From: Nitratidesulfovibrio sp.
GTDB taxonomy: Bacteria > Desulfobacterota > Desulfovibrionia > Desulfovibrionales > Desulfovibrionaceae
Direction: 5' to 3'
Assembly: GCF_040373385.1 (NCBI RefSeq)
Contig: NZ_JBDXXH010000001.1
Location: 673,400-737,399, forward strand
DNA: 64,000 nt
The notes beneath the pieces were generated by a model, which worked only from the letters and a program-made list of their open reading frames with translations, was not told the origin of the DNA and made no database searches. Made by a program: the position numbers and the translations under genes. Shown in pieces: positions 8,103 to 42,507 of this stretch; within the stretch, counting starts at the first letter, position 1; the number at the start of each line of letters is the position of its first letter.

Positions 8103-8456
8103 TCATTCGGGCAGGACGCTCCACAGGCGATACACGGCGGCTTCCGCCGCTGTCGCATCGCGCGCGTCACGGGCCAGGGCCAGGGCCTCGGCGTTTGTGG
8201 CGGCGGGGTCGTGGCGCGTGGCACCGTCCACGGGGTGCCAGCGGATCAGGAACGACGGCGCGGGGTTGGGGCCGCGCCCTTCGGACCACACGGGGCGGTC
8301 GCCGACATTGGGGCGGTGGCGGTGGGACTGCGGCGGCTCGGTCCGCCAGGTGCTGGCGTGCGCGCAGGAATCCGTGGAGACGGCGGATTGTGCCGGGCAG
8401 GGAAGCGCCTGGGGCGCAGGCGAATGCGGCGCGGGCAGAATGGGGGTGGCGTGCAT
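8103..8456 (-). CDS. Small hypothetical protein of the phage immunity island
   Basis: A 117-residue soluble protein of unknown family. The N-terminal half is Pro/Ala/His-rich and looks disordered; the C-terminal ~60 residues (from [15 protein letters not shown] to LWSVLPE) look folded, with an Ala-rich helix. No transmembrane segment or catalytic motif is seen. The start at 8456 is supported by GGAGG four bases upstream. A 17-bp palindrome matching the operator next to the repressor gene lies 33 bases before the start, so the gene is probably under the same repressor. It is transcribed toward the host hybrid kinase and could be a lysogenic or particle-related gene; its function is unknown. 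Confidence 0.65.
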
Positions 8457-8488
8457 GGGACCTCCGTGTTCCGATGTGGAAAACGTAT

Positions 8489-8505
8489 TCGCACAAAATG
8501 TGCGA
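8489..8505. promoter_or_regulatory. Repressor operator copy 1 (perfect palindrome)
   Basis: TCGCACA-AAA-TGTGCGA, a perfect 7-bp inverted repeat with a 3-base centre, lies upstream of the 117-residue gene. It shares the core GCACA-N3-TGTGC with the site in the repressor promoter (9427-9439). A weak leftward -35-like TGGACC sits at 8508-8513, just beyond it, echoing the layout of the repressor promoter. Confidence 0.75.
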
Positions 8506-8666
8506 GTGGTCCAGCAGAGTGCGCCGCAAGGGATGGGGAACGAGGCCACCGGGAGTGGTATCCGGGGGCTGTGGCCGGGGCGTGACGGGTGGCAGGGGGC
8601 GCGACGGGCACGACCAACCGCTGTGGGCATGCCGGTACCGGACGGGCGGCAAGATTGGACGCTGGG

Positions 8667-9413
8667 CTACAGTTCCTTGCCCGCCCAGATGACCCGACCG
8701 ATGACTTCCCATTGCAGGGTGTCGTCGCGCGGGTCGATCTCGATGTCCTGATAGGCGAATTCCGGGTTGTCCCCCCGGAAGTGATAGCGCCCCGGCGTGC
8801 GGGAAAACCGTTTGATGTAGATCTCGTCCTGCACGCGCAGCACGTAAATACGGTCTTCCGCCAGTGCATGGTCGTGCTGGTTGACCAGCACCAGGTCGCC
8901 GTCGTGCAGGGTGCGTTCCATGGAACGGCCCATGACCTCCATGAGACACAGGCCGGTGGTGGACCGTGCCCGACCCAGCACCCAGTCCAGCCGGAAGGCA
9001 TGCTGCTCCTGTGGGCGCCCGCCGGTCTGCAACGAGCCGCCGCCCGCGCTGGGGCGTGCCTCCGCCCTGTCCACCAGGACGAATTCTTCGGCCAGACGCC
9101 GGGCTTCTTCCGGCGCCTCCGGTTGCCCGGCGGACGGGCGCGGGGTCTCCCCGTAGGGGCGCAGCATGCGTTCGTGCAGGCCGCGCCGGTGCGACGGCCC
9201 GCCGGTGACGGAAATGCGGTCCAGGTGCTCGGTGAGCCGCGCGAGATTGGTGCGGCTGGGAAACCGCTCGCCGTTCTTCCAAGCGTAGACGGTGCGCTCG
9301 CTGACCCCCGCGATTTCCGCAAGGCGCTTCACGCCACCCACGCTGTGCAGCGCGTCGATGACGTACTCCCGAAGCTCGTCCCAGTCGGTTCCCGTGGAAT
9401 CGTACTCGTTCAT
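8667..9413 (-). CDS. CI/LexA-like phage repressor (HTH plus S24 peptidase fold)
   Basis: A 248-residue DNA-binding repressor. The N-terminal helix-turn-helix is about residues 20-60 (RLAEIAGVSERTVYAWKNGE). The C-terminal S24/LexA-type domain (about 135-248) holds the Ser of GRSMERTLHDGD and the Lys of IYIKRFSR, the expected Ser-Lys dyad for RecA-stimulated self-cleavage. The linker has an Ala-Gly (SAGGGS) that could be the scissile bond, but this is unproven. The start at 9413 is chosen because a promoter-like pair lies just before it (-10 at 9421-9426) and the further ATG at 9449 would overlap that promoter. No Shine-Dalgarno is present, so the mRNA is probably leaderless. An operator between -35 and -10 suggests autoregulation. 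Divergent early genes start at 9716. Confidence 0.9.
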   Translation of the reverse strand: MNEYDSTGTDWDELREYVIDALHSVGGVKRLAEIAGVSERTVYAWKNGERFPSRTNLARLTEHLDRISVTGGPSHRRGLHERMLRPYGETPRPSAGQPEAPEEARRLAEEFVLVDRAEARPSAGGGSLQTGGRPQEQHAFRLDWVLGRARSTTGLCLMEVMGRSMERTLHDGDLVLVNQHDHALAEDRIYVLRVQDEIYIKRFSRTPGRYHFRGDNPEFAYQDIEIDPRDDTLQWEVIGRVIWAGKEL

Positions 9414-9420
9414 GCATGTG

Positions 9421-9448: not shown

Positions 9449-9478
9449 TGAAAAATTGCCATCGGTGTACCGATACTC

Positions 9479-9715: not shown

Positions 9716-10012
9716 ATGTACGCGATGTCACGCGGTGGCCGGTGCGCCGTATGCGGTAGCTCGTCCGGCATGGAAGATGCCGCGGTGGTGGCTGGCGTGG
9801 TGCTGTGCCCGGCTTGTGCCGAGGGATGCAGCCTGCATGACCGGCGGCTGCCCATGATGTTCATCGAGGTTGACGAGCACCGGCGACTGCTTGGTCTGTA
9901 CCATGCAAGCCACGACGAGGCCCGCCACCCCACGCCCGAGACTGCGCGCGCCCGGCTGCGCGCACTGGAGGCGTGCAACCGTTTTTTTGAAGGAGGTGCG
10001 TCATGCCGATAG
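9716..10012 (+). CDS. Small zinc-knuckle protein, early phage block
   Basis: A 98-residue protein with CAVCGSSSG followed ~20 residues later by CPACAEGC, a four-to-five cysteine zinc knuckle in the N-terminal third. The rest contains a short hydrophobic stretch (MMFIEVDEHRRLLGLYH) and an Arg/Ala-rich helix. No known family is recognised; a nucleic-acid or protein-binding accessory role is inference. The start at 9716 has GAGAGG seven bases upstream; an in-frame ATG at 9680 with GGGAGG further off is the alternative. The 3' end overlaps the next gene by 10 bases, so the two are translationally coupled in one early operon with the SSB-like and HTH genes. Confidence 0.7.
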   Translation: MYAMSRGGRCAVCGSSSGMEDAAVVAGVVLCPACAEGCSLHDRRLPMMFIEVDEHRRLLGLYHASHDEARHPTPETARARLRALEACNRFFEGGASCR

Positions 10013-10434
10013 TGACTTGCCTGCATTGCGGTACTCCGTTTTCCGTCAATCCGGCTCGGCTGCTGCACGGTCGGGGGCGGTATTGCAGCCGGGCCTGCCA
10101 TGCGGCGGCGCGGACCCTGGAACGCCCCGAACGTTGCCAGTTGTGCGGGGGAGCCATGCCGCCGGGGCGCGCCCATCGCCGCTACTGCTCGCGGGAGTGC
10201 GTATCGCTGGCCGCCGCCGGGCAGGCCCGGCCGCAGCCACGCGACTGCGCGGTGTGCGGGCGCAGGTTCACCCCCGCCACGCTGCGGGACAGGTTTTGCG
10301 GACCCGGCTGCGAGGCGGCGGCGCATGGCATGGATCACGGGTTGTTCGAGGACCCGTGGGCCTCGGGGGACATTCCGCCGGATTGCTATGGCCGCGACCT
10401 GTTCCGCATGCCGGACATGGTGCTTGGATTCTGA
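10003..10434 (+). CDS. Triple zinc-finger protein, early phage block
   Basis: A 143-residue protein made of three tandem Cys4 units: CLHC...CSRAC (residues about 6-31), CQLC...CSREC (45-66) and CAVC...CGPGC (80-102). Each is CxxC, a 14-19 residue spacer rich in Arg and aromatic residues, then CxxxC, like MYM/FCS or treble-clef fingers. A 40-residue acidic/aromatic tail follows. It probably binds nucleic acid or protein; no enzymatic motif is present. The start has AAGGAGG eight bases upstream, placed inside the end of the preceding zinc-knuckle gene. Known phages often carry single fingers of this kind; three in a row filling the whole protein is less usual. Confidence 0.75.
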   Translation: MPIVTCLHCGTPFSVNPARLLHGRGRYCSRACHAAARTLERPERCQLCGGAMPPGRAHRRYCSRECVSLAAAGQARPQPRDCAVCGRRFTPATLRDRFCGPGCEAAAHGMDHGLFEDPWASGDIPPDCYGRDLFRMPDMVLGF

Positions 10435-10604
10435 GGCCCGCCGAAGGGCGAACGGTCGTTACCGGCGAGGGGATTCATGCCGGTTGGCCGCCACACGGCG
10501 AGCACGCCGTCCGGCGCGCCCCGCGCCGGTACGGGATATGCCGACCCGCGTGAGCAACGCGACGCGGCTGGTGCGACGTGGACCGTCGCAGAGGAGGATG
10601 CCGC

Positions 10605-11171
10605 ATGGCGGCTGTGAACAGAGTGATGCTGCTCGGGCGCGTGATGGCCGCGCCCCGGCCCGTAGCCGGTACATCGGGTGATTGCGTGCTGTTTTCCGTC
10701 AGCACCGAGGGCGCCGGACAGGACGACGCGGGCCAGCGGCACCGGGTGCGCGTCACCGGCGACCAGGCCGCATGGTGCCTTGCGCGGTTGCGGCGCGGCA
10801 TGCTGGTGCACGTGGAGGGAGAATTGCTGGCCTGCGCGCAGGGGGGGGAAGCCTGCGCCGTGGTGGCGGCGTGGCTGGTCCAGGCCGTGGAGAACGACCA
10901 GCGTTCGGGGGCGCCCGTACATCCGCCTGCACATCCGCCTGCACATCGGCCCGTGCGTGCGGCTCTGCAACCCGCCGTATTTTCCGCCGCGTTTCCCGGC
11001 GTGCGGGACGATGCCCCACTGCCCGGTGCGCACTGCGCCCGGTCGGAACCCCTTGATCGCGGGACCGATGAACATGCCGGTGGCGATGCTGGCGCATTGT
11101 CGCTGCCGTGGCGGCGTGCTCCGGATATGGCCGGTGGCGTGCCGGGCATGCCGTCATGGCGCATGCATTGA
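10605..11171 (+). CDS. ssb: Single-stranded DNA-binding protein (OB fold), phage-type
   Basis: A 188-residue SSB-family protein. The OB fold occupies about residues 3-95: NRVMLLGRV at the start, VLFSVST in strand 3, HRVRVTGDQAAWCLARLRRG and VHVEGELLA in the later strands. The C-terminal half is Pro/His/Ala-rich and low in complexity, with HPPAHPPAH repeats. It ends in PSWRMH and lacks the acidic tip (DDDIPF type) by which cellular SSBs recruit partner proteins, so it is unlikely to be the housekeeping SSB. The start at 10605 follows GAGGAGG by seven bases. It belongs to the early operon; a role in phage replication or recombination is inferred. Confidence 0.8.
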   Translation: MAAVNRVMLLGRVMAAPRPVAGTSGDCVLFSVSTEGAGQDDAGQRHRVRVTGDQAAWCLARLRRGMLVHVEGELLACAQGGEACAVVAAWLVQAVENDQRSGAPVHPPAHPPAHRPVRAALQPAVFSAAFPGVRDDAPLPGAHCARSEPLDRGTDEHAGGDAGALSLPWRRAPDMAGGVPGMPSWRMH

Positions 11172-11270
11172 GGTAAGCGGGCCGGTGCGTGGTGGAGGCG
11201 GCCGGTGTCGGGCGCCCGTGAAGCAACGTCAGACGCGGTCGAGGTGCCGCGAAACAGAGAGGAAGGACGC

Positions 11271-11780
11271 ATGCAGGGCGCGCAGCAACAGCGACAACTG
11301 TCTTTGCACGATCACGTTCCGGAGGTGGCCCGGATGCCTCGCGGCATCTGCGGATGCGAGGAATCCGGGGTCTTGGGGGGCCGGCCGGAGGCCTCGCTGC
11401 CCTGGGGATGCCGGACAGGTATCCACCGGGCGGTTGCGGGCCGGGAGACGGCGCGCGATTCCGTCCCGGGACAGGGGCGGGGGGGGATGCACGGGCAGCC
11501 GTTCGTGCTGGTGGGGCTGGACGCCATTGGCCGCGCCGTGGGCGCGGGGCAGGGCGCGGTGAAGCGTTGGATTCGCGAGGATGGATTTCCTGCCCGCAGA
11601 TGCTCGGACGGTACCTACCGGGCCGATCCCGACGCGGTACGGCGATGGTTTTGGGGAGGGCATGAAGCAACCCCGTGCGGAGTATACCATCCCGGCAGCG
11701 CAGCAGAAAATTCTTCCGGAACGGTCGGGGACGGCATTGCCCATAGCGCCCGTGGCGACGGGCCGGGGCGCGGGCACTAG
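11271..11780 (+). CDS. Helix-turn-helix DNA-binding protein, early phage block
   Basis: A 169-residue protein. The only folded region visible is a winged-helix/MerR-Nu1-like helix-turn-helix at about residues 84-130: LVGLDAIGRAVGAGQGAVKR then WIREDGFPARRC, YRADPDAVRRWF. The first 80 and last 40 residues are low complexity. Proteins with this fold in phages serve as excisionase/AlpA-type regulators or DNA-packaging (Nu1-like) recognition subunits; the sequence does not decide. The start at 11271 has AAGGA five bases upstream. It is the last gene of the rightward early cluster; a strong stem-loop follows at 11843. Confidence 0.65.
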   Translation: MQGAQQQRQLSLHDHVPEVARMPRGICGCEESGVLGGRPEASLPWGCRTGIHRAVAGRETARDSVPGQGRGGMHGQPFVLVGLDAIGRAVGAGQGAVKRWIREDGFPARRCSDGTYRADPDAVRRWFWGGHEATPCGVYHPGSAAENSSGTVGDGIAHSARGDGPGRGH

Positions 11781-31295: not shown

Positions 31296-33116
31296 ATGAC
31301 CAGCCAACGACTGCGCGACGCCCGCGAGGCGGTGGACTTTCTGGAACGGCAGCGCGCGCCGTGGGAAGAGGCGTGGCGCGACATCGCCGCCTACGTCCTG
31401 CCCCGGCGCGGGCGCATGCACGGGCGCGACCCGCTGGGCGCTCCCGCTTCCGGCGCCGGGGCTGGCTCGTCCGGCGTGACGGGCGGCTCCACCGGCTCGG
31501 CCGACACGCGCGGCGGGCGGGTCATCGACGCCACGGCCACCCGCGCCGTGCGCATTCTGGCGGCGGGCATGCAGGGGGGGCTTACCTCGCCCGCGCGGCC
31601 CTGGTTCCGCCTGCGGCTGGCCGACGGGGCCGACGCGGAATCCGGCCCGGCCCGCCGTTGGCTGGATGCGGTGGAACAGCGGCTGTACTGGGCGCTGGCC
31701 CGCAGCAACTTCTACCAGGCATCGCATGCGCTCTATACGGAATTGGCCGCCTTCGGTTCCGCCGACCTGTACCATGAGGTGGACCCGGAACGGCTGACCC
31801 GCTTCGCCGCGCTGACCTGCGGCGAATTCGCCTGGGCCTGCGATGCGGCGGGCCGCGTGGACACCGTGGCGCGGCGCATGCTGATGACCGCCCGCCAACT
31901 GGCGGAACGCTACGGCGAGGCGCGGCTGTCCAGCGGCACGCGGCGCATGCTGCGCAAGGAACCCAACCGCCACGTGGAGGTGGTGCATCTGGTGCGGCCC
32001 CGCGCCGTGCGCACCCCCGGCCATGACGGCAACCTGCACATGCCCTTCGAGTCGCTGGTGTTCGAGGCGGACGGTGCCGCCGGAGACCTGCTGCACGAGG
32101 GCGGCTTCGAGGAATTCCCGCATCTGGCCGCGCGCTGGGACGTTACCGGCAGCGACGTGTACGGGCGCTCGCCCGGCATGGACGTGCTGCCCGACGTCAA
32201 GATGTTGCAGGAAATGGCCCGCAGCCAACTGTTGGCCATCCACAAGGTGGTCAACCCGCCCATGCGCGTGCCCACCGGCTTCAAGCAGCGCCTCAACCTG
32301 ATTCCCGGCGCGCAGAACTACGTGGCGCCGGGCCAGCCCGAGGCGGTGGCCCCGCTTTACCAGATCAACCCGGACATCGCGGCGGTGACGCGCAAGATCG
32401 ACGACGTGCGCAAGGCCGTGCGCGAGGGGTTCTTCAACGACCTGTTCCTGATGTTCACGGCGGATGGCCGCTCCAACGTCACGGCGGCGGAGGTGGCCGA
32501 ACGCGGGCAGGAAAAGCTGCTCATGCTCGGCCCGGTCATCGAGCGGCACCAGACGGAACTGCTCGATCCGCTGCTGACGCGCACCTACGGCATCCTGCGC
32601 CGGGCCGGGGCGTTGCCGCCCAACCCGCCGGAGCTGGAAGGGCTGGAGATGCGCGTGGAATACGTCTCGGCGCTGGCCCAGGCCCAGCGGATGGGGGCGG
32701 CGCAGTCCATCCGCCAGTTCGCGGCGGAGGTCACGGCCCTGTCGGCCACCGCGCCCGGCGTGCTGGACAAGATCGACTTCGAGCAGGCCGTGGACGAGTT
32801 GGCCGCCATCGGCGGGGTGCCCGCGCGGGTGGTGCGCTCCGATGCCGAGGTGCTGCGGCTGCGCGCGGAACGCGAGGCCGTGCAGGCGGCGCAGGGGGCT
32901 GCCGTGGCGCGCGGTGCGGCGGGTGCCGCCAGTGCACTGGCAAGGGTGCTGGGCGTGGACGGAGGGGACGGCGCGTCGAGCGGGGGCGTCGGCAGTGGCG
33001 GGAGCGGGGCGTCAACTGGGGGTGTCGGTGCCGCCGCATCGGTCACGCCTTCTGCGCCCTCCCGGCCTTCTGTCCCGCCTGTCCCGGCGGGCCGGGGCAC
33101 GGAGGCGCTCGCATGA
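31296..33116 (+). CDS. Podoviral portal (head-to-tail connector) protein
   Basis: A 606-residue portal of the Head-tail_con family (T7 gp8-like), forming the dodecameric vertex through which DNA is packaged and ejected. Family landmarks: FLERQRAPWEEAWRDIAAYV at the N-terminus, VIDATATRAVRILAAGMQGG then LTSPARPWFRL, QASHALYTELAAFGSADLYH, a central KMLQEMARSQLLAIHKVVNP stretch, and PLYQINPDIAAVTRKIDDVR, FFNDLFLMF. The last ~60 residues are Gly/Ser/Pro-rich low complexity, beyond the usual fold. GGAGCCTGGC precedes the start. It overlaps the next gene by ATGA. The frame is intact over full length. Confidence 0.93.
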   Translation: MTSQRLRDAREAVDFLERQRAPWEEAWRDIAAYVLPRRGRMHGRDPLGAPASGAGAGSSGVTGGSTGSADTRGGRVIDATATRAVRILAAGMQGGLTSPARPWFRLRLADGADAESGPARRWLDAVEQRLYWALARSNFYQASHALYTELAAFGSADLYHEVDPERLTRFAALTCGEFAWACDAAGRVDTVARRMLMTARQLAERYGEARLSSGTRRMLRKEPNRHVEVVHLVRPRAVRTPGHDGNLHMPFESLVFEADGAAGDLLHEGGFEEFPHLAARWDVTGSDVYGRSPGMDVLPDVKMLQEMARSQLLAIHKVVNPPMRVPTGFKQRLNLIPGAQNYVAPGQPEAVAPLYQINPDIAAVTRKIDDVRKAVREGFFNDLFLMFTADGRSNVTAAEVAERGQEKLLMLGPVIERHQTELLDPLLTRTYGILRRAGALPPNPPELEGLEMRVEYVSALAQAQRMGAAQSIRQFAAEVTALSATAPGVLDKIDFEQAVDELAAIGGVPARVVRSDAEVLRLRAEREAVQAAQGAAVARGAAGAASALARVLGVDGGDGASSGGVGSGGSGASTGGVGAAASVTPSAPSRPSVPPVPAGRGTEALA

Positions 33117-33658
33117 GCCGCCATTCCTCCCCCATTCCTTCCCGTACGGCGGACGGCGGGCGTCACCCTGATTCCGTGCAGCGGGCCGCCTCTGCGCCGC
33201 AGGCCGACCCCATTCCGCAGCCCGACATGATCCTGGCCGACCTGCTGGCCCGCACCGCCATGGCGGATGCCGAAGGCCCCGGTGTCCTCAATGGCCCCGA
33301 TGGAGCGGACGGCCTGCTGACCGACCTGCTGGGGCCGGAGGTGGAAGAGGCCCGCCGTGCCCGGCGCGAGGAAACCACCCGTCTTGCCGCCTATCTCGAC
33401 GACCTTGCGGCGGTGCTGCGCACGCAGGGCGGGGTCGGGGTGCGCGTGCTGCGCCACTGGCTGGATGCCGCCTGCGCCAACGACCGCCTGTCCCGGCCAG
33501 AGCCCGCCATCCACGGGGCAGCGGCCCTGTACGACTATGCCCGCGACCGCACGGCGGAAATCGCCATGGCCGACCCGGCCAGCCTGCTGCGCATCCAGTT
33601 GGAAGGGGCGCGGCGCTGGGCCGGGGAACAACTGAACACCGGCGGGCGGCGGGACTGA
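33113..33658 (+). CDS. Phage structural-cluster protein (Bbp19-like?)
   Basis: A 181-residue protein following the portal. The first 85 residues are low complexity; the C-terminal half is helical: TTRLAAYLDDLAAVLRTQGG, VGVRVLRHWLDAACANDRLS, AAALYDYARDRTAEIAMADP. Position and the GxRVLxxWL...LYxxARxxAxxI pattern resemble the Bbp19-like proteins that sit between portal and scaffold genes in BPP-1-like podoviruses, but identity is tentative. It is translationally coupled to the portal by a 4-base overlap. Confidence 0.65.
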   Translation: MSRHSSPIPSRTADGGRHPDSVQRAASAPQADPIPQPDMILADLLARTAMADAEGPGVLNGPDGADGLLTDLLGPEVEEARRARREETTRLAAYLDDLAAVLRTQGGVGVRVLRHWLDAACANDRLSRPEPAIHGAAALYDYARDRTAEIAMADPASLLRIQLEGARRWAGEQLNTGGRRD

Positions 33659-33753: not shown

Positions 33754-34458
33754 ATGGAACAGACACTGGCCCCGGCACCATCACCCATCATGGCGGGCGG
33801 CGCATCCGGCGCATCGGGCGCATCCGGCCCATCTGGCATGTCCGGCCCTTCCGCCCCGGCGAACCCGGCTACCGCATCGGTGGCCCCCGCCATTCCCGCC
33901 GATTCCGGCACCGTCCCCGGCCTGCCCGGCCTGCCCGGCGTGCCCGGCCCGTCCGATTCCCCCGATTCGCCTGCTGCGCCCGGCAGCCCCGCCGCCCCGC
34001 GCAACGCCGCAGACTACGCCTTCGACCTGCCGGACCACCTCACGGTGGATACGGCTGCGGCGGACCGTTTCCGCGCACTGTGCGCCGCCCAGGGGCTGAC
34101 CCCGGAACAGGCCCGCGCCGCCGTGAACTTCTACGTGGCCGAGCACGAGGCGGCGGGGGGCCTGGCCGCCGACGGCTGCGAGGCGGGCCTGCGCACCCTG
34201 TGGAAGGGCCGCTACGACGAGCGCATCGATACCGCCCGCCGCGCCGTGCGCGGCCTGGACGCCCGCATGGAGGGGCGGCTGGCCCCGCTGGTGCGCGCCG
34301 GGCTCGGCAACCATCCCGCCTTTGCCGAACTGATGGCCCTGGTGGGCGAGCGCATGGGCGAGGATTCGCTGGGCGCGGGCACCGGCCCGGCGGGCGCGCG
34401 CGGCGAGGCCATGAGCACCGAGGATTTCCTGCGGACCGTCGTGTTCGCCAAACGTTAA
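33754..34458 (+). CDS. Probable capsid scaffold protein
   Basis: A 234-residue protein located between portal and major capsid genes, where podoviruses encode the scaffold. The first ~85 residues are a Gly/Ala/Ser/Pro repeat region (GASGASGASGPSGMSGPS, PGLPGLPGVPGP) and may be removed or disordered. The C-terminal half holds the scaffold-like pattern YAFDLPDHLTVDTAAADRFR, AQGLTPEQARAAVNFYVAEH, LWKGRYDERIDTARRAVRGL and a final GLGNHPAFAELMALVGERMG. In known phages this protein directs capsid assembly and is absent from mature heads. GGAGAA lies before the ATG. Confidence 0.75.
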   Translation: MEQTLAPAPSPIMAGGASGASGASGPSGMSGPSAPANPATASVAPAIPADSGTVPGLPGLPGVPGPSDSPDSPAAPGSPAAPRNAADYAFDLPDHLTVDTAAADRFRALCAAQGLTPEQARAAVNFYVAEHEAAGGLAADGCEAGLRTLWKGRYDERIDTARRAVRGLDARMEGRLAPLVRAGLGNHPAFAELMALVGERMGEDSLGAGTGPAGARGEAMSTEDFLRTVVFAKR

Positions 34459-34477: not shown

Positions 34478-35392
34478 ATGGGCAAGACGCTGAAGGAACT
34501 GAGCAACGAACAGGCATCCACGCAGCCGCAGCAGGTGGACGGGCTGACCGAGGAGGCCCCCATCCTGGGCATCGTTCCCTTCGAAGAGGCCAGCCACGGC
34601 CTGTGGAACATGTACGAGGACGTGGAAGAGGTGCAGGGCGCGGGCTGGGTGGAGATGAACGCGCCCTTGCCCTCGGTGGAGGTGACCAGCAACCTGCGCA
34701 AGGTGGATCTGTCCATCCTTGGCGGCGAGATCGAGGTGCCGGAAGACACCGCCCGCATGTTCGGCGGCAAGGAGAAGTACTTCTCCAAGAAGATGCCCAA
34801 GGTGCTGCGCCGCTCGGGCATGTCGGCGGAACAGCGCATCATCTACGACAACTTCCGCGCCTTCGCCCTGGACCACGGCAAGGTCACCGACGCCGGGGCC
34901 GAGGCGGGCGGCTGCTATTCCATGCTGGCCGTGCGCTTCGTCGAAGGCGAAACCTGCGGCCTGTACAGCCCGGAATGCTTCAAGCAGGGCACCGTGCTGG
35001 ACGTGCAGTCCATCAACGGCGGCGAACTCTACAAGGCCACCAGCGGCCAGTACCAGGGCGTGCTGGTCTTCGGCCTGCGGCTGAAGTCGTACCTGGGCAT
35101 CCAGATCGCCAACCCCCACAGCGTGGCGGCCATCGTCAACGTGAACCGCGACAACGTGCCCACCGAGGCCATGATCGACGACATGCTGGCCCAGGTGCGC
35201 GCCACCTCCGGTTCCACCTACCTGTTCATGCACGAGCGCGCCCGCAACCTGCTGTACCGCTACAAGGCCGGTGCCTTGCAGATCGTGCCGGGCGGCAAGG
35301 ACATGGACCGCCAGATCACCCACTGGAACGGCATCGAGATCGTCACTTCCTACAACTTCAAGGATGGCACCGAACAGGTGCTTGCCCTGTAG
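34478..35392 (+). CDS. Major capsid protein
   Basis: A 304-residue protein with the layout of the Bbp17/gp7-type major capsid proteins of podoviruses: IVPFEEASHGLWNMYEDVEE, ALPSVEVTSNLRKVDLSILG (partly), EVPEDTARMFGGKEKYFSKK, FGLRLKSYLGIQIANPHSVA, MIDDMLAQVRATSGSTYLFM, ARNLLYRYKAGALQ and the end NGIEIVTSYNFKDGTEQVLA. It builds the icosahedral shell, presumably in the HK97 fold. Composition is less repetitive and codon use tighter than its neighbours, as expected for a highly expressed structural gene. AGGAGG lies eight bases before the start. Confidence 0.88.
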   Translation: MGKTLKELSNEQASTQPQQVDGLTEEAPILGIVPFEEASHGLWNMYEDVEEVQGAGWVEMNAPLPSVEVTSNLRKVDLSILGGEIEVPEDTARMFGGKEKYFSKKMPKVLRRSGMSAEQRIIYDNFRAFALDHGKVTDAGAEAGGCYSMLAVRFVEGETCGLYSPECFKQGTVLDVQSINGGELYKATSGQYQGVLVFGLRLKSYLGIQIANPHSVAAIVNVNRDNVPTEAMIDDMLAQVRATSGSTYLFMHERARNLLYRYKAGALQIVPGGKDMDRQITHWNGIEIVTSYNFKDGTEQVLAL

Positions 35393-35473: not shown

Positions 35474-35872
35474 ATGTACGGACACATGCTGCGTGTGCAT
35501 GGCGAACATCTGGCCAAGGGGCAGGAACTGCCCAGGAACGCCCAGGCCGTGGGCAACGGCGGCCCGCAGCGCGCGGGTTCGATGATGGGCGCAGCCGAGG
35601 TCGCCGCCGTGGCCGCCACGCCAGTCACCCTGGGTGACGGCAAGAGCCTTACCCTGATGCTGGAAGACAGCGACGACGGCACCGCCTTTGCCGCGTTGCC
35701 CGTGTCGTTCCGGCGCAGCACCCCCGGCGGGCGCACCTGGGCCGGGGGCGAGGTGCTGGGCCGCCTGCCCCTGCCCTCCGACTGCCGCCGCCACGTGCGC
35801 GTGGTGATCGGCACCGACGACGCCGGGGCCTCCGGCACCGTGGACGTCGTCTTCGACTACCTGCCGCGCTAG
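35474..35872 (+). CDS. Capsid cement/decoration protein (Bbp16-like)
   Basis: A 132-residue protein directly after the major capsid gene. The N-terminus (MYGHMLRVHGEHLAKGQELP) is extended; the remainder alternates strands (SLTLMLEDSDDGTAFAALPV, RHVRVVIGTDDAGASGTVDV, VFDYLPR), fitting a beta-rich capsid-stabilising protein such as BPP-1 Bbp16. AAGGAGA lies six bases upstream of the chosen ATG. An in-frame ATG at 35456 would add six residues but has no ribosome site. Confidence 0.72.
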   Translation: MYGHMLRVHGEHLAKGQELPRNAQAVGNGGPQRAGSMMGAAEVAAVAATPVTLGDGKSLTLMLEDSDDGTAFAALPVSFRRSTPGGRTWAGGEVLGRLPLPSDCRRHVRVVIGTDDAGASGTVDVVFDYLPR

Positions 35873-35955
35873 CGCGGCCACGGACCGCAACCCCCGCCCG
35901 CACCCGCCATACCACGGCGGGTCGGGCGGGGAACATGGCACGGAGGTGCCCCACC

Positions 35956-36570
35956 ATGACCAATGACATGACCAAGGATGGAGCGCCGGGCCACGTCCCG
36001 GCGGTGCACGAGGAACCGGCGGTACACGAGGAACCGGCAGGGTGCGTCCCCGGTGCGGCGGCGGCCCCCGCTTCGCCCGCCTTGCCCGGCTCCCCGGATG
36101 TGGCGGAAACGTCCGAACCCGCCGAACCGCCCACCCGCGCGGACGTGCGCCGCTTCCGCCTGGCGACCCTGCGCGCCCGGCTGGCCCTGCTGGGGGTGGC
36201 CTTTGACCCGTCCACCGACGAGGCCACCCTGCGGCGCATGCTGCGCGCAGCGGAGGGCCAGAGGGACGAAGCTCCCGTGATGGGCGCGCCCAATGCGCCC
36301 GATGTGTCCGGTTCGCCCGATGCGTCCGGTGCGTCCGGTGCGTCTGGCGCGTCTGGCACAACAGGTGCCGCCGACCCCGCCCCGGCGGTGCCCGACCTGC
36401 CGCCCAGCGCCGCCATGCGCCGGGCCACGGCCCGCCACCTGCGCGAACGCCAGCGCGTGGCGGCGGAGGATACCGGAGTCAGCGGAGTAACCGGGTCCCC
36501 CAGAACCCCCAGAACTGACGGAACTGGCAGAACCGTCGGGGGCCGCCCGCGCGGCAGGGGGCGGTCATGA
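35956..36570 (+). CDS. Phage structural-cluster protein with repeat-rich linkers
   Basis: A 204-residue protein. Only the middle (about 60-105) looks folded: TRADVRRFRLATLRARLALL then GVAFDPSTDEATLRRMLRAA, a helical SAP-like or adaptor-like pair. The flanks are low complexity with AVHEEP repeats and SGASGASGAS encoded by 9-bp repeats (about 36300-36365), and the end is Arg-rich (GGRPRGRGRS). CGGAGG lies nine bases before the ATG. It overlaps the tail tubular A gene by ATGA. Small linker-rich proteins in this slot are seen in related phages; function unknown. Confidence 0.65.
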   Translation: MTNDMTKDGAPGHVPAVHEEPAVHEEPAGCVPGAAAAPASPALPGSPDVAETSEPAEPPTRADVRRFRLATLRARLALLGVAFDPSTDEATLRRMLRAAEGQRDEAPVMGAPNAPDVSGSPDASGASGASGASGTTGAADPAPAVPDLPPSAAMRRATARHLRERQRVAAEDTGVSGVTGSPRTPRTDGTGRTVGGRPRGRGRS

Positions 36571-37163
36571 GCGCCGGTTTTACCCCCAATGCGGTCGCCA
36601 GTTCCCCCCAGACCAGCGAGGTGTCCATCTGCAACAAGGCCCTGCGCTACCTGGGCGCCCCGGAAATCGTGGCCCTGGACCAGCCCTCGCGCGAGGCGGA
36701 CCTGTGCTCCCGCTATTACGCGGAAGCCCGCGACGAATTGCTGGAACACCACCACTGGAACTTCGCCACCCGCTACACCTCGCTGGCCCCGCTGGCTGCG
36801 GTGCCGCCCTTCGGCTTTGCCTGCGCCTACCGCCTGCCCGGCGACTGCCTGCGGGTGCGCCGCCTGCGCAGCGAGCCGCCCTTCGAGGTGGTGGAGGCGC
36901 GCACCCTGTACACCGACGCGGCCCCGGCAGAAGCGGTGCTGACCGTGCGCGTCACCGACCCGGCCCGCTTCCCGGCCCTGTTCGTCGAGGCGCTGGCCCG
37001 CCGTCTGGCCGCCGCGCTGGCCGTGCCGCTCATGAACAGCTCGCGCACCGAGCAGGCCATGCTCCAGCGTTTCGGGGATGCCCTGGAGGCCGCCCGCGTG
37101 GCCGACGCCGCCGAGGGCGCGTCCGACCCCGTGGAGATCAACCCCTGGCTTCTGGCGAGGTAA
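36567..37163 (+). CDS. Tail tubular protein A (T7 gp11-like adaptor)
   Basis: A 198-residue neck protein of the T7 gp11 family that forms the ring under the portal. The family pattern is clear: SEVSICNKALRYLGAPEIVA, EADLCSRYYAEARDELLEHH then HWNFATRYTSLA, FACAYRLPGDCLRVRRLR, and the helical end FPALFVEALARRLAAALAVP, TEQAMLQRFGDALEAARVAD. Length is typical. It is coupled to the genes on both sides (ATGA overlap upstream, 3-base gap downstream to tail tubular B). Confidence 0.88.
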   Translation: MSAGFTPNAVASSPQTSEVSICNKALRYLGAPEIVALDQPSREADLCSRYYAEARDELLEHHHWNFATRYTSLAPLAAVPPFGFACAYRLPGDCLRVRRLRSEPPFEVVEARTLYTDAAPAEAVLTVRVTDPARFPALFVEALARRLAAALAVPLMNSSRTEQAMLQRFGDALEAARVADAAEGASDPVEINPWLLAR

Positions 37164-37166
37164 CCC

Positions 37167-39245
37167 ATGGCGCGCACCACCCTGATCCAGAACAGCTTCA
37201 ACGCGGGCGAACTGTCGCCCCTCATGGCCGCGCGGGGCGATCAGGCCCGATACGCCAGCGGCTGCCGCGTGCTGCGCAACATGCTGCTGCACCCGCATGG
37301 CCCGGCTTTCCGGCGGCCCGGCCTGCGCTTCATGGGGCCGTGCGCCGACGAAACGACACCGCCCCGGCTGGTGCCCTTCGTATTCAACGAGGAACAGGCC
37401 TACGTGCTGGAGTTCGCCCCGGAACGGCTGCGGGTGTGGTGGCGCGGGGGGCTGGTGCTGGGGGGTGACGGCGCGCCGCTGACGGTGCCTACCCCCTACG
37501 CGGCGGGACACCTGCCCACGTTGCGCTGGTGCCAGTCCGCCGACGTGCTCTACCTGGTCACGCCCCATGCCGCCCCGCGCAAGCTGGAGCGCCACGGCCA
37601 CGCCGACTGGCGGCTGGTGACGGTGGATTTCGGCCCGCGCGTGGCCACGCCCACGGGGTTGCGCTCCACGGGGGCGCCGTCCGGCACCCGCCTGCACCGC
37701 TACGTGATCACCGCCGTGTCCGTGGACACCGGCGAGGAAAGCCTGCCCACAGCGGAACTGGGCGTCACCGCCGGGACTCCTGCGGAAGGTTCCGCCGTCA
37801 ACCTGGCCTGGGACGCCGTGGAAGGGGCCAGCGAATACCGGGTGTACAAGGCCGGGGGCGGGGCCTCGGTGTACGGCTTGCTGGGCACCGCAGCCACGGG
37901 CGAAACCTATGCCGATACGGGCCGCACGCCGGACTTTGCCGAAGGCCCGCCCGAGCACCGCAACCCCTTCGAAGGGGCGGACGACTACCCCTCGTCGGTG
38001 CAGTTCTGGCAACAGCGGCTGTGCTTCGCCGGGTCGCGCAGCCATCCGCAAACCATCTGGGCCAGCCGTACCGGCTGCTACGAGAACATGGACGTCTCGC
38101 GTCCGCTCCAGACCGACGACGCGGTCACCGTCACCATCGCCTCGGAAACGGTCAGCGCCGTGCGCTGGATGATGCCCGCCCGCAAGCTGCTGGTGGGCAC
38201 CGGCGGCGGCGAATGGACCCTTTCCGGGCAGGGCAGCGAGCCGTTCTCGCCCTTGTCGTGCCTGCTGGAATTCCAGTCGGCGCGCGGCTCGGCGGAACTG
38301 CCGCCCCTGGCCGTGGGCGACGGGGTGCTGGCCGTGCAGCGCGGGGGCCGGGCTGTGCGCGACTTTCGCTACAGCCTGGACGTGGACGGCTATTCCGGCG
38401 CGGACCAGACCATTCTGGCCGAACACATGCTGCGGGGCCGCAACATCGTGGACTGGGCCTACCAGCAGTCGCCCCATTCTGTGGTGTGGTGCGCCATGGA
38501 CGACGGCACCATGGCCGGGCTTACCCTTATCGCCGAGCATCAGGTGGCGGGCTGGCATCGCCACGATACCGGCGGCGCGGTGGAGGCGCTGTGCGTGGTG
38601 CCCGGCCCGCCTTCCGACCCCGCAGGGGGCGACGAGTTGTGGCTGGTGGTGCGCCGCGACGTTAACGGCGCGCCGCGGCGGTACATCGAGCGGCTGGACC
38701 CGGCCTTCGAGTCGGATACCCCGGCCCCGGCGTTTTTCGTGGATTCCGGGCTGTCGTATCAGGGGCCGCCCGTGGCCGCGCTGGGCGGGCTGGAACACCT
38801 GGAAGGGCGCGAGGTGTCCATACTGGCCGATGGCTGGGTGCATCCGCCGCGCACCGTGGCGGGCGGGCACATCGAACTGGACCGTCCGGCCTCGGTGATC
38901 CACGCCGGGCTCGGCTATGCCAGCGACCTTGCCCCGGTAACGCAGGAGTTCGTGGCGGGCGATGGTCCCACCCAGGGCCGGGTGCGCCGGGTGGGCCGGG
39001 CGCGGGTGCGGCTGTATCGCTCGTCGGGGTTCAAGGCCGGGCCGGACGCGGACCACCTGCGCGAGGTGCTGTTCCGCACCGCACAGGACCCGCCGGGGCA
39101 GGCGCTGCCGCTGTTCGACGGCGACCGCGAGGTGACCCTGGATGCGCGGCTGGGCACGCAGGGCAGCCTGCACGTGCGGCAGGACGACCCGCTGCCGCTG
39201 ACGGTGCTGGCGGTGATCAGCGAAGTGGAGGTGGGCGAGGCATGA
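37167..39245 (+). CDS. Tail tubular protein B / nozzle (T7 gp12-like)
   Basis: A 692-residue beta-propeller tail nozzle protein. It opens with the family signature TTLIQNSFNAGELSPLMAAR then GDQARYASGCRVLRNMLLHP, followed by FRRPGLRFMG. A fibronectin-III-like insert is at about 165-250 (RYVITAVSVDTGEESLPTAE, GASEYRVYKAGG). Later FWQQRLCFAGSRSHPQTIWA, SRTGCYENMDVS and GGGEWTLSGQG belong to the core found in podoviral nozzles. Full length and intact. It overlaps the next gene by ATGA. Confidence 0.9.
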   Translation: MARTTLIQNSFNAGELSPLMAARGDQARYASGCRVLRNMLLHPHGPAFRRPGLRFMGPCADETTPPRLVPFVFNEEQAYVLEFAPERLRVWWRGGLVLGGDGAPLTVPTPYAAGHLPTLRWCQSADVLYLVTPHAAPRKLERHGHADWRLVTVDFGPRVATPTGLRSTGAPSGTRLHRYVITAVSVDTGEESLPTAELGVTAGTPAEGSAVNLAWDAVEGASEYRVYKAGGGASVYGLLGTAATGETYADTGRTPDFAEGPPEHRNPFEGADDYPSSVQFWQQRLCFAGSRSHPQTIWASRTGCYENMDVSRPLQTDDAVTVTIASETVSAVRWMMPARKLLVGTGGGEWTLSGQGSEPFSPLSCLLEFQSARGSAELPPLAVGDGVLAVQRGGRAVRDFRYSLDVDGYSGADQTILAEHMLRGRNIVDWAYQQSPHSVVWCAMDDGTMAGLTLIAEHQVAGWHRHDTGGAVEALCVVPGPPSDPAGGDELWLVVRRDVNGAPRRYIERLDPAFESDTPAPAFFVDSGLSYQGPPVAALGGLEHLEGREVSILADGWVHPPRTVAGGHIELDRPASVIHAGLGYASDLAPVTQEFVAGDGPTQGRVRRVGRARVRLYRSSGFKAGPDADHLREVLFRTAQDPPGQALPLFDGDREVTLDARLGTQGSLHVRQDDPLPLTVLAVISEVEVGEA

Positions 39246-39988
39246 GCGCGCATCCTGTCCACGTCACTCGCCCCGCCCATGTCACTCGCCCTGTCCACGC
39301 CACTCGCCCCGTTCACGTCACTCGCTCCGCCCACGCCGTTGCGGATTCCCCGGCTGTTCCGCCCCCCCCAGCCCCGGCAGTCCCGGCATCCCCGGCCCCC
39401 GTGCCCGCAAGGCGCCCGGCGGGCACGGTGCGCACGGGCTTTGCCCGGCCCGGCGCGAATGGGCGCACCCGGCTGCACGTGGTCCCGGCGCGTCGCCAGC
39501 ACCTGCGCCAGGTGCTGCCCCGCTTGCGCCCGCGCGACCGGGCGGAACTGGAGGCCCTTGGCCCGCGCGGCGCCGTGGCCGAGGCGGCGCGGGCCTTCGC
39601 CCTGTCGCCCCTGCGCTGGGCGGTGTTGCGCGGCGGGCGGTGCGTGGCCCTGTTCGGCGCGCGGCCCTTTCCCGGCATGCCGGACACGGCGGCACCGTGG
39701 CTGTTCGGCACCCCGGACCTGGATGCGGAAGGCCGGGCGCTGGCCCGGCTGGGGCCGCTGTTTGCCGCACGCATGCGCGCGGCATGGCCCCGGCTGGTGA
39801 ACATGATCCACGCCCCGGCCCTGGCGGGGCGCCCGGCCACGGCGCGCTGGCTGGCCCGGTGCGGATTTGCCGTGGCAGCGCACCCCATGCCGCTGGGGCA
39901 TGGCGGCGCGCCGTTCCATCCCTTTACTTCCGGCGATTTCCCTGCGGCCAGCGTTGCGCCGGAACAACCGACCAACACGGGAGGATGA
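39242..39988 (+). CDS. Gp13-like internal virion protein A (acetyltransferase-like fold)
   Basis: A 248-residue protein. After ~75 low-complexity residues (HVTRP/HATRP units encoded by 12-15-bp repeats, then Pro/Ala) comes the family core: HVVPARRQHLRQVLPRLRPR, DRAELEALGPRGAVAEAARA, ALSPLRWAVLRGGRCVALFG, APWLFGTPDLDAEGRALARL, HAPALAGRPATARWLARCGF. This matches phage Gp13 (T7 internal core/assembly) proteins, which share a GNAT-like arrangement without proven activity. It sits between nozzle and internal virion protein B, the T7-like order. Confidence 0.78.
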   Translation: MSAHPVHVTRPAHVTRPVHATRPVHVTRSAHAVADSPAVPPPPAPAVPASPAPVPARRPAGTVRTGFARPGANGRTRLHVVPARRQHLRQVLPRLRPRDRAELEALGPRGAVAEAARAFALSPLRWAVLRGGRCVALFGARPFPGMPDTAAPWLFGTPDLDAEGRALARLGPLFAARMRAAWPRLVNMIHAPALAGRPATARWLARCGFAVAAHPMPLGHGGAPFHPFTSGDFPAASVAPEQPTNTGG

Positions 39989-39989
39989 C

Positions 39990-40499
39990 ATGTGCGGATT
40001 GCCCCAGGCCCTGGTGGCAGCGGCCATTCTGCAGGGCGGCTACACCCTGATGGATTCGAACCGGACCGCCAGCGCCACCAAGGCGCAGCAGGAATACCAG
40101 GCGGCCACCCAGCGCAACGCGGCCTTGCAGGCCAATTACCAGATCGAGGAGACCCAGCGCGACGCCGAGCGCACCGAACGGGCACTGAAGCGTCAGGCAC
40201 GTTCGCAGCAGGCGGGGGTGCGCTCGCTGCTGGCGGCGTCGGGCATGGACGCCGGGTCGGGCAGTGCGCTGGACGTGTTGCAGGACCAGTCGCTGGCCGC
40301 CGAGGTCGACGTGCTGGACGTGCGGCGGCAGTCGGAACGGCGGCAGCGGGCCCTGGAATATCAGGCGGCGGGGGCGGACAGCAGTGCCTCGCTGCTGATG
40401 GGCATGGCCAACGACCCGTGGTCGCGGGTGCGCCAGGGCTGGCGCAGCGGCATGATCATCGGCAACACCGTGCAGGGCGCGGGCAACCTTCTGATGTAG
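39990..40499 (+). CDS. Internal virion protein B (T7 gp14-like)
   Basis: A 169-residue protein: hydrophobic start (ALVAAAILQGGYTLMDSN), a long helix rich in Gln/Arg/Glu (QQEYQAATQRNAALQANYQI, ETQRDAERTERALKRQARSQ), then the conserved LLAASGMDAGSGSALDVLQD motif of gp14-like ejection proteins and a final amphipathic helix. In T7 this is ejected into the outer membrane. The large ejection proteins that should follow (gp15, gp16 with transglycosylase) are absent: the next gene, 90 bases on, is the fibre. GAGG is four bases before the ATG, which begins one base after the previous stop. Confidence 0.82.
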   Translation: MCGLPQALVAAAILQGGYTLMDSNRTASATKAQQEYQAATQRNAALQANYQIEETQRDAERTERALKRQARSQQAGVRSLLAASGMDAGSGSALDVLQDQSLAAEVDVLDVRRQSERRQRALEYQAAGADSSASLLMGMANDPWSRVRQGWRSGMIIGNTVQGAGNLLM

Positions 40500-40589
40500 G
40501 CCTTCCTGCCATGGTACCGGCCCCGGGCGGTATCCGGGGTTGGAAACTGCCCCCAGGGCAGTGCCATCAGGAACGCAAAGGAGCGGACA

Positions 40590-42185
40590 ATGACCATCGT
40601 ATCGACGAACACCGTCGAACAGTACACCGGCAACGGCACGCAGACGGAGTGGCCGGTGACCTTCCCGTTCCTGCGGCCCGAGGACGTGCGGGCCGTGGTG
40701 AGCGGGACCGGCGGCGACAGGGTGCTGGCGTACGGCACCGACTACGTGGCCGCCGCGCTGCCGGGTGGCGGGGGCAGCGTGATTACCATGCCGGGCGCAC
40801 CGGGCGCGCCCGGCGTGGTGGGCGCGGGCGAACACCTGACGCTGTGGCTGGACCAGCCCTTCACGCAGGAGATGGACCTGCGCAACACCGGCGTGCTGGA
40901 CGCGGAAATGCTGGAGCACGGCTTTGACCGGCTGACCCTGATGGCCCAGCAACTGCGCGAGGAAGTGGGGCGCTGCGTCAAGGTGCCCCTGACCGACCAG
41001 TCCACACGGCCCGACGCCCTGCTGGAGGGCATTACCGCCAACGTGGGCCGTGCGGAACTGGCGGCGCTGGCCGCGCAAGATCAGGCGGCACTTGCCACGG
41101 ATTGCGCGGAACGGGCGGAAACCGCCGCCACCAGCGCCGATGCCGCGCTGACCGGTGTGCAGCAACTGCATGGCGAGGTGATCCAGGCCGTGGCGGATGC
41201 GCGGGAAGATGTGGCGGGGTCCGCCGCGTTCGTGCCCATCGGGGCCATCCTCGACTTTCCGGTGAACACGGTGCCTGCGGGCTTTCTGGTGTGCGCCGGG
41301 CAGGTGGTGACGCGGGCGGCGTATCCGGAACTGGTCACCTACCTGACCGGGGGGCCGGAAGCCCTTTCCGCCACCCTGCCCGATTACCGGGGCACGCTGA
41401 GCCGCGCGGCGGACCTTGGGCGCGGGCTGGCCCCCGACGTGGTCGTGGGCGGCTACCTTGCCGATGCCTTTCAGGGGCACTGGCATTCGTTCTATCGGCA
41501 CCAGAATGACCAGGTGCCGTCCGGCGGCGGGCAATATCTCACGGTCAACAACCCCACAATTCCCGTGCTTGTGGGCAATGGCGTGGTGCGTGGTGCCGTT
41601 GCCGACGGCGTGAACGGCACGCCGCGCGTGGCGGCGGAAACACGCGGCAAGAGCTACGGCGTGGTGCGCTGCATCAAGGCGTATCACGCGCCCATGGGCG
41701 CGGAACCGGTGGATATTGCGGAAGTGATGGACCGGCTGGATGCCATGGCGGCGGTTGTCAGCCCCGAAGTGGGGCGATTCTGCCTTGTTGGTGCGACCAC
41801 CAGTGGCCAGTCGTTTCCCGCCAATGTGAACACCACTGTCGCCGCCCTTGGCGGAAGAGTTCAGTTCGGGGGGGAAGCATGGCCCGACGCGGGCGACGGT
41901 TCGCTGTCCATCATCGTTCCCGAGGCTGGGACGTACGAGATCGAGGCCAAGCTTACCCTTCTCAGCGGGACGAACAGTTCGGCATTCGCGTGGATTTCCG
42001 TGAACGGCAGCCTCCTTTCCGCGTCGATAGCCTATGCCCCCACGACATACTGGACTTTTTTGCATCCCCGTGTGGTGCGGACGCTTGCAGCGGGCGACAT
42101 CGTGCGCATCGTGACGCAATCCACGGCCACGACGCAGAGCGGCTCAGGCGGGACGGCGACGTTGACCCTACAGCGCGTGAGGTAG
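40590..42185 (+). CDS. Tail fibre / tail collar protein
   Basis: A 531-residue adhesin in three parts. N-terminal (1-130): T7-fibre-like virion-binding domain (NTVEQYTGNGTQTEWPVTFP, DYVAAALPGGGGSVITMPGA). A helical stalk follows (LAAQDQAALATDCAERAETA). Middle (about 210-380): phage tail collar domain (PIGAILDFPVNTVPAGFLVC, TLPDYRGTLSRAADLGRG, AFQGHWHSFY). C-terminal (about 390-531): a separate beta-rich, C1q/TNF-like domain (GQSFPANVNTTVAALGGRVQ, YEIEAKLTLLSGTNSSAFAW), less GC-rich than the rest, probably the receptor-binding tip. AAAGGAG lies six bases before the start. Fibre C-termini are commonly swapped between phages. Confidence 0.88.
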   Translation: MTIVSTNTVEQYTGNGTQTEWPVTFPFLRPEDVRAVVSGTGGDRVLAYGTDYVAAALPGGGGSVITMPGAPGAPGVVGAGEHLTLWLDQPFTQEMDLRNTGVLDAEMLEHGFDRLTLMAQQLREEVGRCVKVPLTDQSTRPDALLEGITANVGRAELAALAAQDQAALATDCAERAETAATSADAALTGVQQLHGEVIQAVADAREDVAGSAAFVPIGAILDFPVNTVPAGFLVCAGQVVTRAAYPELVTYLTGGPEALSATLPDYRGTLSRAADLGRGLAPDVVVGGYLADAFQGHWHSFYRHQNDQVPSGGGQYLTVNNPTIPVLVGNGVVRGAVADGVNGTPRVAAETRGKSYGVVRCIKAYHAPMGAEPVDIAEVMDRLDAMAAVVSPEVGRFCLVGATTSGQSFPANVNTTVAALGGRVQFGGEAWPDAGDGSLSIIVPEAGTYEIEAKLTLLSGTNSSAFAWISVNGSLLSASIAYAPTTYWTFLHPRVVRTLAAGDIVRIVTQSTATTQSGSGGTATLTLQRVR

Positions 42186-42189
42186 AGCA

Positions 42190-42507
42190 ATGCACAACGA
42201 ACGCATGCACGAGGCCTTGTGCCGCCTGTACCCCGATGCCCCGGAAGGCGCGTGGGAACTGGCGTGCGGCCCGGAGACGGATTGGGACGTGATGATTTCG
42301 GAGTGGAGGCTGGAAGAGGCGCAGCCCGCGCAGGCGGCGCTGGACGCGGTGTACGCGCAACTGGCGCAGGAAGAGGCTACCCCTCGCCCGCCCGAACCGG
42401 AAGCGCTGGACCTGAATGCCATCACCTATGCCCAGGCCGATGCCATCATCCGCGCCGAAAGCGTGGAGGATTTGCGGCTGGCAATGCTGGACGTGCTGGG
42501 GTTGTAG
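42190..42507 (+). CDS. Small fibre-adjacent protein (assembly chaperone-like?)
   Basis: A 105-residue acidic protein: MHEALCRLYPDAPEGAWELA then DWDVMISEWRLEEAQPAQAA, LDAVYAQLAQEE and the end DLNAITYAQADAIIRAESVE, LRLAMLDVLGL. The pattern of a short protein with P-x-x-xW-x-x and 'ISEWR' right after a fibre gene resembles XkdW/fibre-associated proteins; assignment is loose. It starts four bases after the fibre stop and is the last gene of the structural operon. From here to 42734 no feature is seen. Confidence 0.65.
   Translation: MHNERMHEALCRLYPDAPEGAWELACGPETDWDVMISEWRLEEAQPAQAALDAVYAQLAQEEATPRPPEPEALDLNAITYAQADAIIRAESVEDLRLAMLDVLGL

Follow-up and report, generated by a model that had tools for sequence, protein, structure and literature searches.

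The stretch of DNA analysed here, referred to as the window, comprises 64,000 nt of Nitratidesulfovibrio sp. (genome positions 673400-737399 on contig C1 of the own genome, G000) and carries genes of short-tailed phage type that are separated into islands by host genes. Four islands were found: a repressor/early island, an island with holin-like, coiled-coil and small terminase subunit (TerS) genes, an island with the large terminase subunit (TerL) and a companion gene, which lies to the left of the window, and a portal-to-fibre cassette. The gaps between them measure approximately 5, 13 and 19 kb and hold host-type genes, as the preliminary description of this DNA had read them; among them are histidine kinases, motAB, TPR and dienelactone hydrolase-type genes. 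Window proteins, covering a subset of the window open reading frames (ORFs), were scanned with PHROGs and Pfam profiles. The scans confirmed the three islands with intact virion genes that had been proposed within the window, and all frames were open (Table 1). The frames had also been called mostly coupled by ATGA overlaps, which is overstated, since such four-base overlaps occur at five junctions (25334-25337, 25675-25678, 33113-33116, 36567-36570 and 39242-39245). From TerL to the fibre-assembly gene the islands extend over approximately 54 kb; the genome of phage BPP-1, a guide to a related head, is 42.5 kb.

Table 1. Phage-type features of the window, with positions counted from its first base.
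Feature	Position	Strand	Evidence
S24 (LexA/CI-like) repressor with helix-turn-helix (HTH)	8667-9413	-	PF00717 2.9e-18, phrog_4 1.9e-25
Divergent Zn-ribbon early protein, phrog_1271-like	10003-10434	+	PHROG scan
SSB-like protein	10578-11171	+	PF00436 1.2e-06, phrog_44 1.6e-4
HTH ORF, excisionase/regulator-like (weak)	11205-11780	+	phrog_66 E 0.011
TerS, 283 aa	24486-25337	-	PF03592 1.4e-26 (residues 42-202), phrog_51 2.3e-28
Coiled-coil protein, membrane-anchor-like stretch, spanin-like by eye	25334-25678	-	no Pfam match, weak phrog_726
Holin-like protein (by eye)	25675-26211	-	phrog_1544 3.9e-21 (function unknown in PHROGs)
Upstream element of holin-TerS island, common to TerL island	26338-26360	-	alignment scores; partly supported
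phrog_831 protein, first gene of structural cassette	31058-31285	+	1.5e-11
Portal (head-to-tail connector)	31296-33116	+	PF12236 4.7e-176; PDB 8ck0 1.6e-108
Conserved cassette protein of unknown kind	33113-33658	+	no PHROG match
Scaffold/protease-type head protein	33754-34458	+	phrog_3742 6.9e-16, phrog_458 2.7e-12
Major capsid protein, BPP-1/epsilon15 HK97-like type	34478-35392	+	phrog_212 2.4e-06; 3j4u profile E 0.0043
Decoration-position protein (place of BPP-1 bbp16)	35474-35872	+	bbp16 similarity of G026 and G157 homologues
Low-complexity, fast-evolving ORF	35935-36570	+	dN/dS 0.48-0.67
Tail tubular protein A (TTA)	36567-37163	+	phrog_394 2.7e-48
Tail tubular protein B (TTB)	37167-39245	+	phrog_376 2.1e-194
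gp13-like internal virion protein	39242-39988	+	phrog_308 8.2e-19
gp14-like internal virion protein	39990-40499	+	phrog_418 1.6e-11, PF24072 3e-08
Tail fibre with collar domain, fast-evolving	40590-42185	+	PF07484 9.5e-11
Fibre-assembly-like protein (XkdW)	42190-42507	+	PF09636 2.8e-07

The absence of TerL claimed in the preliminary description holds inside the window but not for the genome. A search of the whole genome placed a TerL gene at G000:C1:661525-663165(-), 10.2-11.9 kb to the left of window base 1. Its product matches phrog_38 at 9.4e-55 and contains AREHYKST, VYDD, VDPAGERKKGSD, YEKYG and HDDMLD, which we take to be the ATPase and nuclease motifs of a TerL. Searches with PF03237, with phrog_2 and with a profile built from eight TerLs of phages or prophages had returned no TerL from the own genome, the one later found being of a different family; their two best weak matches were RecD-like and PhoH-like by eye. 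The gene came to light through the syntenic locus of genome G157, belonging to a second genus (g22, eight genomes, containing Halodesulfovibrio), where a phrog_38-family TerL (1.5e-59) lies between TerS and portal. With that protein as query the own-genome TerL was recovered in two pieces of 75% and 69% identity. The companion gene, without a family match, follows TerL in both genera. The distance from TerL to TerS is approximately 35 kb in the own genome, and we assume that PF03592, the family matched by TerS, includes its DNA-binding part.

Among the window proteins scanned no endolysin, integrase, polymerase or primase was seen, a result that does not extend to the unscanned ORFs or to the genome outside the window. 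From its bbp16 position the product of 35474-35872 presumably has a decoration-like role. The sequence behind the cassette (42508-45082) is AT-richer, with a GC of 0.54 at 43-44 kb, and its long minus-strand ORF (42795-44969) had no match in any of 14 relatives compared, though both flanks are syntenic within the genus. A secreted-looking host protein occurs twice, the copies having diverged (28% within the own genome), one at 29353-30414 adjoining the structural cassette and the other (L174, ~6568-7038) adjoining the TerL island. These copies may mark how an ancestral prophage was split.

Synteny, selection and co-divergence with the host

The comparison within the genus was made between the own genome and G001, G004, G005 and G007; the genus set comprised eight genomes including the own, and the family set 149. 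Order, strand and spacing of the window phage genes and of the intervening host genes are alike in G004, G005 and G007 and in the covered parts of two G001 contigs. TerL is placed alike in all three same-genus genomes for which the flank was fetched (G004, G005, G007), of which the G007 assembly is a single contig. The capsid was found in six of the eight genomes of the genus, the misses being G003 and G006, in approximately 800 contigs each, while TerL was found in all eight and also in the eight g22 genomes listed. A match to the holin-like protein was present in 27 of the 149 family genomes.

In g22 the islands keep the same neighbourhood. The holin-like/coiled-coil/TerS island occurs in seven of the eight genomes and beside the same TPR gene in 7/7, and the coiled-coil gene adjoins TerS in both genera. 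Behind the structural cassette the same TetR gene is found in 8/8, and the same sensor gene is also a neighbour. In G157, G124, G028, G108 and G135 TerL lies between the TerS island and the cassette on one contig. At the position of the window's collar-domain fibre, the g22 cassette ends in a protein of 454-615 aa without a PHROG match (e.g., L107:6597-8312). The conserved cassette protein (33113-33658) was matched in 10 of 14 loci compared, but not in G014, L020, L021 and L023. In the early island of G028 an endolysin-like M15 peptidase (L260:4951-5442, phrog_894 7.9e-14) lies between the SSB-like and HTH genes; at this position G157 has what seems to be a short remnant, and none was seen in the window. 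Contiguous related prophages also co-occur in genomes with the dispersed set: L118 (G005:C15), L101 (G135:C21), L102 (G087:C19) and L184 (G024:C8). The comparison across related genomes that had been proposed in the preliminary description thus gave islands and host genes that are syntenic in the genus and keep their neighbours in g22.

All 18 phage genes tested were open in all five same-genus genomes including the own, and TerL and its companion in 4/4 where fetched. Ratios of dN/dS, also proposed earlier for portal, capsid and tail genes, were estimated by NG86 between the own genome and the four others (three pairs each for TerL and repressor). They were low for capsid (0.07-0.18), TTB (0.10-0.12), portal (0.15-0.21), TerL (0.18-0.23) and repressor (0.05-0.16), and higher for TerS (0.35-0.41), the fibre (0.35-0.60) and the low-complexity ORF (up to 0.67). 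Synonymous distances of the phage genes ranged from 0.06-0.14 (capsid) to approximately 0.6, with 0.68-0.76 for the fibre, gp13/gp14-like and Zn-ribbon genes against G005; for 16 host genes nearby they were 0.09-0.64. Neutral drift was simulated at 0.2-0.25 substitutions per site (300 runs, indels ignored), and it left on average 0.4-0.6 and at most three of ten cassette frames open. The core phage genes are under purifying selection.

Distances between homologues of nine phage proteins (TerL, portal, scaffold-type, capsid, decoration, TTA, TTB, holin-like and TerS) were compared with RpoB distances. Over both genera (11-13 genomes) the correlation was r = 0.90-0.99. Within g22 alone (6-8 genomes) it was 0.905-0.995, with permutation p of 0.03-0.05 for capsid, decoration, TTA, TTB and TerS and lower for the other four. 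When D. cuneatus (G026) and G024 were added, the seven proteins found there gave r of 0.89-0.98. For the repressor r was 0.909 over 13 rows and 0.986 without G028. In the seven-protein phage trees (14 and 13 rows) and in the RpoB tree, both genera and the two g22 subclades were congruent with full support. G005 was outermost in the genus with bootstrap 80-83 in the phage trees and 95 for RpoB, and G026 grouped with G024 on long branches (supports 85 and 94). A quick TerL tree of 31 rows chosen from matches placed the 14 dispersed TerLs in one clade (SH-aLRT 97) and TerLs of contiguous prophages outside it. These distances and trees indicate that the phage-gene set is inherited vertically with the host.

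In the same 31-row tree the seven TerLs used from another genus, g8, formed a separate clade. In g8 (G014, G143, G078, G154, G164; L042, L043, L179, L180, L190, L192) TerL, companion and portal are clustered, and in G014 a BPP-1-like capsid lies farther from the cluster. The g8 cluster is possibly a second domesticated form; under a reading with a single domestication, the g8 clade would extend the system to more of the family.

Ancestry and control of the islands

The gene order of the window cassette is that of BPP-1 (NC_005357), i.e., portal, bbp20/19, protease, capsid, bbp16, TTA, TTB, internal virion protein and fibre. A structural model of the capsid matched 3j4u (BPP-1) at 6.1e-07 and 8cjz (Carin1) at 3.3e-06 in Foldseek, and these were, with epsilon15 3j40, the only PDB matches under 0.001; they are taken as supportive only, because the mean pLDDT of the model was 54. 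Capsid model and gene order point to an ancestor that was BPP-1/epsilon15-like rather than T7 itself, which replaces the T7-like ancestry of the preliminary description. In BPP-1 the genes form a single stretch in which TerL adjoins portal, while here the islands are split and TerL is displaced, and the BPP-1 TerL has its best match in phrog_979 instead of phrog_38. Outside the family, the own TerL was 22-32% identical to those of phages (best 20 of 416 records) and the portal 39% or less (best 20 of 179 listed); the portal was found in none of 24 genomes of the order's other families, and neither the 50,697 phage nor the 72,556 plasmid records searched held a match to the capsid at E 1e-5. 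In IMG/VR seven contigs matched the capsid, four at 95-99%, which represent this same locus, and three at 38-39%. The locus shows how virus callers treat such islands, pieces of 13-19 kb being filed there as viral contigs.

The repressor was present in 8/8 same-genus genomes including the own (89-100% identity) and in 8/8 g22 genomes (57-64%, the G028 copy being only partly in frame), whereas other S24 proteins of both genera reach at most 39%. In seven of the eight g22 genomes its contig also carries one or more of the other islands, the exception being G166, in approximately 80 contigs. The Zn-ribbon gene lies beside the repressor in all 13 genomes examined (42-100% identity), and Zn-ribbon and HTH ORF together in 8/8 g22 genomes. 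Residues ~89-149 of the HTH ORF are conserved between the genera, with 42-72% identity over 48-97 aa in the eight g22 genomes. Since repressor, Zn-ribbon gene and HTH ORF co-occur with the neighbourhood of the other islands in g22, the repressor island is part of the system. The serine of GRSM and the lysine of YIKRF, which we take to be the S24 dyad, and SAGGGS, presumably an Ala-Gly cleavage-like motif, are identical in 13/13 aligned repressors. With these motifs kept throughout, SOS control is the natural guess, and the repressor is probably SOS-cleavable, releasing the system.

Within the genus the blocks that precede the islands are conserved. Alignment of the TerL and holin upstream regions scored 17.0, 17.0 and 17.5 against host-host maxima of 15.5, 16.0 and 15.5 in G000, G004 and G007, which are related and not independent genomes; in G157 and G124 the scores of 10.5 and 9.0 against maxima of 11.0 and 10.5 gave no excess. 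The upstream regions of the phrog_831 and holin-like genes scored 13.5 and 16.5 against the same maxima of 11.0 and 10.5 in G157 and G124, 15.0 in G000 and 14.5 in G004, both below the maxima and above the 99th percentile, and 10.5 in G007, without excess. The TerL and phrog_831 regions (12.5, 11.0, 10.5, 12.0 and 7.5) showed no excess except for the 12.0 of G157, which is a ribosome-binding stretch. In this comparison one of the G004 controls ran into an island (island-host score 217). Scanning the genome with the 26338-26360 element gave four matches, two exact ones at the source sites of the pattern and two with three mismatches, and no further island; the reversed-pattern control also gave four. 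A common activator of the islands is possible from these scores.

A proposed domesticated particle system and its alternatives

Gene transfer agents (GTAs) are defined in PMC9662315 by Caudoviricete-derived proteins that form tailed-phage-like particles, by an endogenised genome, often in several loci, and by mostly vertical inheritance; the same definition lists particles with mostly random host DNA, a head too small for all of the agent's own genes, and delivery of DNA to cells. Here portal, capsid, tail and terminase homologues are of Caudoviricete type, the four islands are split by host genes at the same site in the same-genus genomes fetched and beside the same neighbours in g22, and the genes diverge with RpoB along congruent, supported forks. 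We regard it as quite probable, judging from the sequences compared, that the locus represents an old, domesticated podophage of BPP-1 type that is kept as four islands and serves as a GTA-like particle system. It is called GTA-like and not filed as a member: endogenisation, co-diversification and the phage descent of the particle proteins are seen, whereas particle formation, cargo and delivery, like SOS control and lysis, are read from the genes.

The genes present would suit a particle that can be assembled and filled while no phage genome is in sight as its content, as in a GTA. Such a system could work as follows. Stress, probably DNA damage, would lead to self-cleavage of the S24 repressor, and a fraction of the population would then make short-tailed particles. 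With no phage genome remaining for replication, TerS and TerL would load host DNA into them. The holin-like protein would open the cell together with lytic enzymes encoded elsewhere, and the particle DNA would be taken up by relatives. Since the window yielded no large ejection proteins, entry may require an uptake route coded by the recipient, in analogy with the recipient-coded uptake of DNA from RcGTA particles. The more specific proposal, a podovirus-derived GTA domesticated once in an ancestor of at least two Desulfovibrionaceae genera, with four islands, an SOS-cleavable repressor, the phage's large ejection proteins stripped and recipient-dependent entry, we hold to be about evenly balanced between right and wrong.

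Several observations speak against a domesticated particle system. Distribution in the family is patchy, with the capsid in 28 of 149 genomes and TerL in 47 of 149; of these TerL matches three are weak, with E above 1e-6, and one is short. In the quick TerL tree G004 and G005 form a pair (support 80), whereas RpoB has G005 outermost. No relatives of the large BPP-1 proteins bbp10 and bbp11 were matched within the window, in line with the earlier statement that gp15/gp16-type ejection proteins were not found. The shared upstream element is only partly supported, and a carbon-per-residue test was mixed, without a clear signature. In G146 of g22 the holin-like gene was not found, and in G028 capsid and tail genes are lost and the repressor parts are no longer in one frame, so the system is dispensable. 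The case of G028 shows that it can be lost, two islands failing together.

The same losses in G028, the fast evolution of some cassette genes and the failure of the window scans to show genes for replication, integration or large ejection proteins would all fit a partly deleted, decaying prophage whose frames are open by chance. We consider this quite unlikely, because the frames are open and core-gene dN/dS is low, while neutral drift would have closed most of them: all ten cassette genes used in the simulation have open frames in five of five genomes against the 0.4-0.6 expected, and they stay in the same place and co-diverge with RpoB over two genera. The preliminary description had favoured a domesticated particle-making locus over decay, and synteny, co-divergence and purifying selection bear out that preference without its premise of a missing TerL. 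A domesticated particle that does not move DNA, i.e., one that kills, acts as a decoy or serves as a structural device, TerL and TerS being kept for another reason, would agree with the large ejection proteins not found in the window and with a fibre evolving fast, as in target recognition. It appears fairly unlikely to us given that TerL, TerS and portal, with their DNA-packaging role, are kept, TerL being constrained (dN/dS 0.18-0.23) and present in all eight same-genus genomes and in the eight g22 genomes listed. Contiguous prophages with the same TerL family do exist in the family (G024:C8, G086), as would be expected if the islands were a still mobile defective phage or satellite with its replication module elsewhere or supplied by a helper; the same site in the same-genus genomes fetched, the same neighbours in g22, the host-gene gaps of ~5, 13 and 19 kb and the separate clade of the dispersed TerLs make this very unlikely. 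An assembly error joining separate prophages, for which no sign was found, we put at next to nil, as the same arrangement recurs in four other same-genus assemblies, one of them the single contig of G007.

Among the GTAs defined in PMC9662315, RcGTA (Rhodogtaviriformidae) and others resemble the GTA-like system described here in having phage-derived virion genes in several loci that are inherited vertically and co-diverge with their hosts; in R. capsulatus RcGTA is reported from five loci (PMC11409702). The RcGTA particles are described there as siphovirus-like, whereas the genes of the present locus suggest a short-tailed BPP-1/epsilon15-like ancestor with a co-inherited S24 repressor. FpGTA of Faecalibacterium is, according to PMC12946183, podovirus-like and without replication genes, in two separated operons; it belongs to another phylum and has TerS, TerL and portal in one operon, whereas here TerS, TerL and the structural genes lie in three islands, with a repressor island besides. 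The GTA-type small terminase is described in PMC11841831 as having no detectable DNA-binding domain, unlike the TerS here, which keeps PF03592. A search made for comparison with the Dd1 particle covered 79 genomes of one genus, of which 11 had a match, 8 of them strong. D. desulfuricans, the host of Dd1, is in the same bacterial family. The link to Dd1 raised in the preliminary description was not borne out: its predicted TerS, Ddes_0720, is given as a protein of 125 aa encoded immediately ahead of TerL and reportedly has no DNA-binding domain (PMC6854486, PMC11841831), against 283 aa with PF03592 and ~35 kb from TerL here. Podoviridae-like particles have been reported after mitomycin C treatment of D. 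vulgaris Hildenborough (PMC8146710). We recognised no published description of this locus in the literature searched, judged largely from titles and passages.

A telling test for a system of this kind is co-divergence with the host at one site, which was feasible here and which the phage genes came through. If the particles carry host DNA, environmental sulphate reducers would have an inherited means of exchanging genes that arose independently, and the old question of Desulfovibrio particles would become testable with named strains.

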